The notes under the pieces were generated by a model. The model did no database searches. It was not told the origin of the DNA and was given only the letters and a program-made list of their open reading frames with translations. A DNA stretch of 64,000 bases from NCBI GenBank assembly GCA_018449715.1, contig JAAVVA010000001.1, positions 248,001 to 312,000 of the forward strand. The letters run 5' to 3'. A program made the translations under genes and the position numbers. This DNA is from Acidobacteriaceae bacterium dw_441 (GTDB lineage: Bacteria; Acidobacteriota; Terriglobia; Terriglobales; Acidobacteriaceae). Of the stretch, positions 32,221-63,437 are shown piece by piece (the stretch's first letter is position 1; every line of letters starts with the position of its first letter).

Positions 32221-32255
32221 GGCCCTGGCTGTTTGTGGCGGTATGGAAGAAAGAC

Positions 32256-32300
32256 AGAAGCAGATTCCTCCGCTTCGCTACGGAAGGACAGGTTCTAAAG
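32256..32300 (+). repeat. REP-like repeat, family 1, copy 1
   Basis: Starts AGAAGCAGATTCCTCCGC and ends GGTTCTAAAG; the most diverged of six copies (CTACGGAAGGACAGG instead of CTGCGGAATGACAAG). Lies between the starts/ends of metG and the GntR gene. Confidence 0.85.
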
Positions 32301-32330
32301 AGGGAGAAGAACTGAATCCGTGGCGACCGA

Positions 32331-37759: not shown

Positions 37760-38131
37760 TCAGATTGTCCTTCCATTTTTGAACTTGTCATTCCGCAGCG
37801 TAGCGGAGGAATCTGTTTCTGTATTTTCTTCCGATGCCAACCATTCTTCCGAGAGGTCAGCCCATGAAAGATTGTCCTGTTCGATCAGGTCGATCTTCTT
37901 TTGCCTATTCCAGTCTTTCAGCTCTTTTTCTCGTGCAATGGCATTGAGAACGTAAGCGGAGCGCTCAAAATACACCAGTCGGGTGATTTTGTACTTCGCG
38001 GTGTAGGTATTCGGGCGAAGCTCCTGGTGTTGGAGGACTCGGGCAGCAAGATTATTGGTGACACCGATGTACAGATTCCGCGAGCGACTGGCGAGGATGT
38101 ACACGTAAAAAGTATTTTCGCGATTTGGCAC
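37760..38131 (-). CDS. Stand-alone GIY-YIG endonuclease
   Basis: 123 residues. A single GIY-YIG nuclease domain of the small YhbQ/COG2827 type: FYVYILASRSRNLYIGVTNNLAARVLQH (tyrosines and arginine of the active site), then AIAREKELKDWNRQKK with the metal-binding glutamate. The last about 20 residues (SSATLRNDKFKNGRTI) are encoded by a copy of the dispersed REP-like repeat, so the natural end of the domain has been replaced or extended by repeat sequence. A second copy lies just upstream in opposite orientation. Base composition is more AT-rich than neighbours, suggesting mobility. Confidence 0.88.
   Translation of the reverse strand: MPNRENTFYVYILASRSRNLYIGVTNNLAARVLQHQELRPNTYTAKYKITRLVYFERSAYVLNAIAREKELKDWNRQKKIDLIEQDNLSWADLSEEWLASEENTETDSSATLRNDKFKNGRTI
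37774..37820 (-). repeat. REP-like repeat, family 1, copy 2 (inside GIY-YIG 3' end)
   Basis: 47 bp on the minus strand, AGAAACAGATTCCTCCGC ... GTTCAAAAATG. Identical to copy 3 at 45 of 47 positions and inverted relative to it. The two copies bracket the GIY-YIG gene body. Confidence 0.92.
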
Positions 38132-38157
38132 GCCTCAGCATAACAAGGGTGGGAGGG

Positions 38158-38204
38158 AGAAGCAGATTCCTTCGCTACGCTGCGGAATGACAAGTTCAAA
38201 AATG
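38158..38204 (+). repeat. REP-like repeat, family 1, copy 3 (upstream of GIY-YIG)
   Basis: 47 bp, AGAAGCAGATTCCTTCGC ... GTTCAAAAATG, in the 5' region of the GIY-YIG gene. Shares the GTTCAAAAATG ending only with copy 2; copies 4 and 6 end GTTCTAAAAG. Confidence 0.92.
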
Positions 38205-38244
38205 TCGGGAGATAAAATAAGCAATTGTGGGATGACAAATATTG

Positions 38245-38706
38245 CTATGGAACATTTAGTGTTTTTTCATCTACAGCGATGACATCTCTTACCGAAATCG
38301 TATACACACCGCCGCAAGCAGCTTTCCACTGGCTATAGCCTTCAAGCGTAGGGACAGTATTGTCCGTCCTTAGAAGATTCTTTGTACTTTGAAGCAGAGC
38401 ATCTCGGGTAAAAGGCATGTGGCCGATAGAGGTCAGTACATTGCCGTTTGGGGCATTTAGTTTTATCCCGTCAATTCGAATATGAACTATGGTCCCGAGT
38501 TTTTCTGAACGATCAATCTGCAAAATGGTGAGGGTTGACGAAGTTTCGCTGGGGCGCGTGGCGTAAGCCCATACCTGCCCAGGTTTGAATTTCTGGTCTG
38601 CTACATTGGTTTCCAGTGCGGGACATGGTTTCTTTTGCTGCCATGCAAAAACATGGCAGCAAAAGGACAACAACACTGGAAGAACCCACGTGGGCAATCT
38701 CCGCAT
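38245..38706 (-). CDS. Small secreted protein of unknown function
   Basis: 153 residues with a Sec signal (MRRLPTWVLPVLLSFCCHVFAWQ). The mature part, for example KFKPGQVWAYATRPSETSSTLTILQID and GTIVHIRIDGIKL, looks like a small beta-rich domain; I do not recognise it. GC content is clearly lower than in purB next to it. The signal-peptide codons contain a 14-bp perfect inverted repeat that would fold the mRNA near its start. Ends 40 nt from repeat copy 3. Confidence 0.65.
   Translation of the reverse strand: MRRLPTWVLPVLLSFCCHVFAWQQKKPCPALETNVADQKFKPGQVWAYATRPSETSSTLTILQIDRSEKLGTIVHIRIDGIKLNAPNGNVLTSIGHMPFTRDALLQSTKNLLRTDNTVPTLEGYSQWKAACGGVYTISVRDVIAVDEKTLNVP
38632..38665. repeat. 14-bp perfect inverted repeat inside signal-peptide codons
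   Basis: CTTTTGCTGCCATG (38632-38645), 6-nt loop, CATGGCAGCAAAAG (38652-38665). Forms a strong hairpin about 40 nt after the start codon of the small secreted protein on the minus strand. Confidence 0.85.
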
Positions 38707-51951: not shown

Positions 51952-51997
51952 GGAAGCAGATTCCTTCGCTTCGCTGCGGAATGACAAGTTCTAAAAG
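51952..51997 (+). repeat. REP-like repeat, family 1, copy 4
   Basis: GGAAGCAGATTCCTTCGC ... GTTCTAAAAG. Lies in the 228-nt gap before the small hypothetical gene; followed at 52056 by a family 2 hairpin. TTTGTGGCGGTA nearby is also present before copy 1. Confidence 0.9.
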
Positions 51998-60423: not shown

Positions 60424-60444
60424 ATTTGGGTGGTGGTTCAAAAG

Positions 60445-60490
60445 AGAAGCAAATTCCTCCGCTACGCTGCGGAATGACAAGTTTGAAATA
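60445..60490 (+). repeat. REP-like repeat, family 1, copy 5
   Basis: AGAAGCAAATTCCTCCGC ... GACAAGTTTGAAATA, directly after family 2 copy D. The junction TAGGAATCCTGCAAA at the mqo stop recurs, with one change, at the stop preceding copy 6. Confidence 0.9.
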
Positions 60491-63391: not shown

Positions 63392-63437
63392 AGAAGCAGA
63401 TTCCTCCGCTGCGCTGCGGAATGACAAGTTCTAAAAG
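63392..63437 (+). repeat. REP-like repeat, family 1, copy 6
   Basis: AGAAGCAGATTCCTCCGC ... GTTCTAAAAG, 14 nt after the SDR stop. The rest of the gap up to 63542 holds nothing else that I recognise. Confidence 0.92.

Follow-up and report, generated by a model that had tools for sequence, protein, structure and literature searches.

Small stand-alone GIY-YIG nuclease genes of the Slx1-like type are found, throughout the genus investigated here, between dispersed copies of CGTC-tagged REP sequences, and the pairing of this nuclease family with this class of repeat is close to certain. Taken as a whole, the observations are best read as a system resembling the RAYT-REP pairs, in which an Slx1-like nuclease would serve as the dedicated REP enzyme; we would give this reading a probability of about 0.6.

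The nuclease locus

The window, a stretch of 64,000 nucleotides, comes from a genome of 4.92 Mb (G000, C1:248001-312000) with only two GIY-YIG genes: the stand-alone gene considered here and one within a frame of 720 amino acids, whose length and domain position mark it as a presumed UvrC. The stand-alone gene (37760..38131, minus strand) has a GTG start and encodes 123 amino acids; PF01541 (E = 7.5e-12) is its only Pfam match, genes with the RAYT domain PF01797 being situated elsewhere with other repeats. Downstream, a REP-like repeat copy on the plus strand (37774..37820) is inverted relative to the gene and overlaps its last codons, and upstream a second copy (38158..38204, minus strand) has the orientation of the gene. 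A preliminary description of this DNA had reported the two as an inverted pair around a GIY-YIG gene, and its coordinates and identity are confirmed: the arms are 47 nt long and 96% complementary (45/47), with a spacer of 337 nt. Just upstream of the full copy is a degenerate 5′ half-copy (TTTGTCATCCCACA...; motif positions about 38220..38240, minus strand). The window's four further copies, at about 32261, 51957, 60450 and 63397, are all on the minus strand (32250..32311, 51953..51996, 60440..60488 and 63392..63436).

The TGA stop of the nuclease gene directly abuts the ATG of its downstream neighbor, which encodes a ykgJ-like CxxCxxCC protein (PF03692; 37139..37759, minus strand), again as first described. 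Two other points of that description held in part. The repeat does provide the 3′ codons of the window's gene, but this is not a general feature, and since most homologues terminate ahead of the repeat these codons are incidental. Likewise, the gene is AT-richer than ykgJ, ubiX and purB (48% against 65% GC) but not than its upstream neighbor orf153 (38245..38706, minus strand; 47% GC), a gene with no assigned function and no Pfam match, so that the AT-rich stretch extends beyond the repeat-nuclease unit. Homologues of the AT-rich orf153 occupy the same place in genomes G005 and G024, there without the nuclease unit.

The protein belongs to the Slx1-like/UPF0213 family and to the repeat clade we designate “3c.” In alignment A1 the residues Y11, Y21, G23, R31 and E68 are invariant, and the catalytic Tyr, Arg and Glu of the GIY-YIG fold are thereby kept (Y11, Y21, R31, E68); the conserved core spans about residues 1-97, and it is the tail of the window's protein that the repeat encodes. 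An AlphaFold2 model predicts one compact domain (pLDDT 92.5). Structures of the UPF0213 family are recovered by sequence (1zg2, E = 3e-11; 1ywl, E = 1e-6), and among solved folds UPF0213 1zg2 and Slx1, a nuclease of branched DNA, come closest. With a single compact domain and an intergenic gene, the features of homing endonucleases are missing. Prokaryotic relatives had been placed in the Slx1 group, with mostly vertical descent inferred, and the same study asked whether other members might be molecular parasites (Dunin-Horkawicz et al., PMC1564403).

Repeats beside the nuclease genes across the genus

From 60 genomes of the genus we took nearly all stand-alone GIY-YIG genes together with their flanks. 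The first motif used, GTCATYC, occurs in the 200 bp upstream of 62/70 genes and in the 200 bp downstream of 56/70; its frequency is at background beyond about 250 bp from the nuclease genes. Seven genes without GTCATYC carry a tag variant (CGTCATCTCGACC-like, and partly degenerate in one), and the motif was widened because of these apparent exceptions. The widened motif is found upstream of 71 and downstream of 69 of the 79 genes with both flanks, on either side of 78 and on both sides of 62; in far-flank control windows of the same loci it occurs in 24/177 and 12/145 (8-14%; Fisher p about 1e-33 per side). A check suggested by the preliminary description, namely that repeats should lie beside GIY-YIG genes more often than expected, is therefore borne out. 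The nearest upstream copy is in the gene's orientation for 57/70 genes, mostly less than 150 bp from the start.

Other genes do not share this association. The [C/T]GTCAT tag is at background at RAYT loci (2/22); it occurs near 3/20 UvrC genes, there in longer stretches, and beside 1/5 genes of other GIY-YIG types. In these genomes the RAYTs lie between repeats of a different sequence and show no tag beyond background, which indicates two repeat systems coexisting unmixed. The earlier exclusion of RAYTs stands to this extent; RAYTs do occur in the window's genome. One such RAYT gene of G000, at C7:42841-43176, is flanked by inverted 57-nt palindromes (GGGTGCCCCAT...), a separate repeat system.

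Correspondence of nuclease clades and repeat types

Sorting the nucleases by protein similarity also sorts their repeats. Clade 1 is accompanied by the type ...GAAGGATCCCGA and clade 2 by ...GTCGAAGGACCTGCGGTTGC, with a variable stem; the types for clades 3a, 3b and 3c (that of the window) are GTCATCCTTCGCGAAGCGGAGGATCTGC, GTCATTCCCGAAGGGAATCTGCGTTT and GTCATTCCGNAGCGNAGCGNAGGAATCTGCTTCT, respectively, and clade 4 has ...GAATCCCCGCATTT and relatives. Distances between proteins and between repeats are correlated (Mantel r = 0.485, against a maximum of 0.100 in 5000 permutations). In genomes with several nucleases, the repeat is closer to that of the best homologue in another species than to that of the genome's own paralogue in 104/106 comparisons, and shared genome ancestry alone is thus insufficient for this matching.

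Copy number follows the same correspondence. For four repeat types across the 60 genomes, median copy numbers are 41.5, 39, 11 and 16 when the matching clade is present, against 0-10.5 for non-matching combinations (joint permutation p = 5e-5, a value that is not free of phylogeny, the genomes being related). The total number of repeats is only weakly related to the total number of nucleases (Spearman rho 0.22, p = 0.13); genomes without a nuclease have up to 72 repeats, and genomes without a RAYT match up to 87 copies. Equal repeat density in the absence of the nuclease, which the preliminary description would have counted against its reading, is hence partly observed for total repeats but not for the matching type.

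Decayed nuclease genes are found in some of the nuclease-less genomes (G027 and G043, with a frameshifted gene in G033), and gene turnover with persisting repeats may explain genomes that have repeats and no matching nuclease. The 3c repeat is abundant in two genomes, G021 (305 copies; genome 88% complete) and G016 (91), in which we could find no 3c nuclease. A search of both for a relic of this nuclease found none, and a decayed matching nuclease was rejected as the source of the 305 copies in G021.

Copy number and strand polarity

The window's genome contains 111-117 repeat copies, far above chance given that a reversed-pattern control finds 0. About 45 of them fall in C6:1-200 kb, where their orientation switches from plus to minus at about 82-83 kb. 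GC skew changes sign at about 82 kb on this contig, and the interval 83-87 kb contains rsmG and parA-like and parB-like genes, which identifies the cluster with the replication origin region. With skew measured leaving out 400 bp around each copy, repeat orientation agrees with local skew for 40/45 copies in the origin region and 19/22 elsewhere in this genome, and likewise in G058 (51/52), G050 (15/15), G041 (10/10) and G001 (5/7); several of the exceptions are members of inverted pairs. Gene direction was rejected as the cause of the polarity, the origin-region genes being balanced (81/156 leading).

Polarity is not specific to the nuclease-repeat system, because the GTAG-type repeats of G058 are polar as well (38/42); what it reflects is dispersal or retention tied to replication in general, not the GIY-YIG enzyme. 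On contig C1 of G058, GTAG-type repeats (GGGTAGGTCCGGGCTTTAGCCCG) are close to CGTC-type repeats, many copies lying within TTGCCGTTGC-like tracts. A dense series of clade-2 repeats, in one orientation among the copies listed, leads to a clade-2 nuclease gene at 1128271 in G050 (C1:1077000-1128000).

Possible signs of movement

Genome G058 has 171 copies, and among those listed nearly all are of one variant (GTCATTCAGGAGCG... / GTCATTCAGGAGCGAAGCGGAGGAATCTGCT), which also precedes the nuclease gene of this genome. To judge by their near-identity, this is a recent burst of repeat copies.

At the ykgJ locus of G024 and G005 the unit is missing: orf153 there overlaps ykgJ or all but touches it, and the segment 37760..38244 of the window (about 485 bp) has no counterpart at this orthologous junction. 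Such empty sites, named beforehand as a check, are thus present in two relatives. The purB gene adjoins ykgJ in G033, G059, G032 and G048; a related nuclease gene is upstream of ykgJ in G018 and G044, nearby in the opposite orientation in G039, and broken in G002. The presence or absence of the unit at this locus is clear, and the change may have gone in either direction.

Truncated 5′ half-copies ending in the hairpin precede 12/45 full copies in the 200-kb origin region of G000, as against 1 case of a 3′ half, and this predominance of 5′ halves suggests breakage or template switching within the hairpin. Arrays of half-copies are also found ahead of the nuclease gene in G018 and G056. The preliminary description had suggested 37774-38204 as one element. 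The 430-bp repeat-nuclease block itself is not multi-copy: the gene occurs once, and the repeats are dispersed without it.

Distribution in other phyla

One scan of named genomes gave 80 relatives from many phyla, whose ranking by similarity to the query makes the sample non-random. Among Acidobacteriota genes with two flanks to examine, 22/22 have the tag beside them; in other phyla it is present on at least one side of 45/53 genes and on both sides of 32/53, with control windows at about 12%. In all of the nuclease-bearing genomes probed (40/40), GTCATYCY...RGRAYCY sites outnumber those of the reversed control (301 versus 3 in G084 and 255 versus 0 in G091, for instance). The E. coli gene yhbQ, which we take to be a member of the same GIY-YIG family, is annotated as a DNA damage response nuclease; its flanks contain no such repeat, the single motif match falling inside yhbS.

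Comparison with known systems

CGTC-tagged REPs were described as hairpins of 20-40 nt with a CGTC or TGTC tag and AT at the stem base, present as multiple families per genome; according to that study they “apparently lack a dedicated transposase” and are never found beside genes for tyrosine transposases, and Acidobacteria are not among the listed hosts (Di Nocera et al., 2013; PMC3733652). The repeats found here have the tag and A/T first stem pairs, CGTCAT/TGTCAT...AT(T/C)C pairing with GGAAT in most families, and they too show no association with tyrosine transposases (background level, 2/22 RAYT loci). The published form has a stem of 8-9 bp, a loop of 4-5 nt and a CCA-like tail; a Flavobacteriaceae copy agrees with this (8 bp, 5 nt, CCA), whereas in Acidobacteria the stems are shorter, longer or weaker, with many of them longer or variable. 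The published families came without a dedicated enzyme, whereas those here lie beside GIY-YIG genes.

The resemblance to RAYT-REP systems (REPtrons; PMC2817692, PMC3733652) lies in a single-copy enzyme gene between inverted dispersed REPs, in tagged high-copy hairpins, and in the co-variation of enzyme and repeat type. The defining features of enzyme and tag fail, however: RAYTs are Y1 (HUH) transposases of the IS200/IS605 type with a GTAG tag, here replaced by a GIY-YIG nuclease and a [C/T]GTC(AT) tag, and the RAYTs present alongside it are accompanied by other repeats. The nuclease-repeat system is therefore not a member of that group. The nuclease shares its minimal single-domain form, fold and sequence family with the prokaryotic Slx1-like proteins (UPF0213, COG2827, YhbQ; PMC1564403; PDB 1zg2, 1ywl); these were described as mostly vertical in descent, whereas the genes here have a patchy distribution, frequently show decay and are accompanied by repeats. 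In Penelope-like retroelements and GIY-YIG homing endonucleases a GIY-YIG nuclease drives the spread of DNA, as is proposed here, but reverse transcriptase, intron and an extra DNA-binding domain are all missing here, and in place of the one cognate allele of homing endonucleases there is dispersal to many unrelated sites. Within the open literature, most subscription papers and preprints being outside this scope, we found no paper linking GIY-YIG with REP or RAYT in bacteria. We know of no transposition chemistry with a stand-alone GIY-YIG nuclease.

Proposed mechanism and alternatives

We propose that the gene is the dedicated nuclease of a REP family, kept in single copy between copies of its own repeat. 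The Slx1-like GIY-YIG nuclease would recognize and cut the [C/T]GTCAT-tagged hairpin of this repeat, probably on single-stranded DNA at replication forks, and cutting would enable this repeat to reach further sites and give rise to tandem half-copies; in its way of working the system would be like RAYT-REP, with an unrelated enzyme. It is quite probable that the nuclease acts on the repeat, and somewhat less so, with the scales still tipping in favor, that it drives the spread. Against this reading weigh the weak relation between total repeats and nuclease number, the abundance of 3c repeats in G021 and G016, the repeat-free flanks of E. coli yhbQ, the polarity shared with GTAG-type repeats, and the fact that no transposition chemistry is known to employ such an enzyme on its own. 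As to the full proposal, that CGTC-tagged REPs are mobilized by a stand-alone Slx1-like GIY-YIG nuclease acting on hairpins at forks, and by neither transposase nor reverse transcriptase, we consider the odds to be even. The preliminary suggestion that a GIY-YIG nuclease, not a RAYT, mobilizes the repeats has gained from the systematic framing of GIY-YIG genes and the co-variation of types, while mobilization itself is something we infer.

The alternative that survives best, though we consider it unlikely, is that the nuclease is a hairpin-processing enzyme like Slx1, and maybe like E. coli YhbQ, which cuts fork-stalling hairpins and co-evolves with them while moving nothing, the repeats spreading by slippage or by another enzyme. 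The Slx1-like fold fits this, as do the DNA damage annotation of yhbQ, the persistence of repeats in nuclease-less genomes, and the tandem half-copies, which resemble slippage or hairpin breakage; yet a housekeeping role does not explain a gene between repeat copies in 62/79 cases, the presence of several clades with different repeats in a genome, or the frequent loss and decay of the gene.

Much less probable is that repeats and nuclease gene are both passengers of another mobilizer, such as a RAYT acting in trans, with the repeats marking the ends of moved DNA. RAYTs are present in most of these genomes, and the repeats of G058 lie close to GTAG-type repeats; against this, RAYTs carry other repeats (tag at 2/22 loci), up to 87 copies occur in genomes without a RAYT match, and it would be left unexplained why nuclease clade and repeat type match. 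A RAYT as the mobilizer was rejected on the ground that RAYT loci carry other repeats. Slightly less credible still is that the flanking repeats act as operators or terminators through which the nuclease regulates its own expression, their dispersal elsewhere being incidental: the orientation of the nearest upstream copy (57/70, mostly within 150 bp of the start) fits this, but hundreds of copies are dispersed away from such genes, with strand polarity and clustering at the origin, and there are bursts of near-identical copies. Chance placement of dense repeats, some of which would fall beside a nuclease gene given a background of 8-14% of windows, is practically negligible at 78/79 genes (p about 1e-33) and was rejected by the far-flank, UvrC and other-GIY-YIG controls.

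Significance

What is new here is a likely enzyme partner for a class of repeats thought to have none. Di Nocera et al. (2013) left the origin and spread of CGTC-tagged REPs open, and the matching nuclease, whose gene lies beside its own repeat in a dozen or so phyla, offers a simple bench test. Were mobilization by the GIY-YIG nuclease proven, the mechanism would be categorically new; it would give a role to a common family of small bacterial nucleases, and add a second, chemically different class of enzyme to REP biology.
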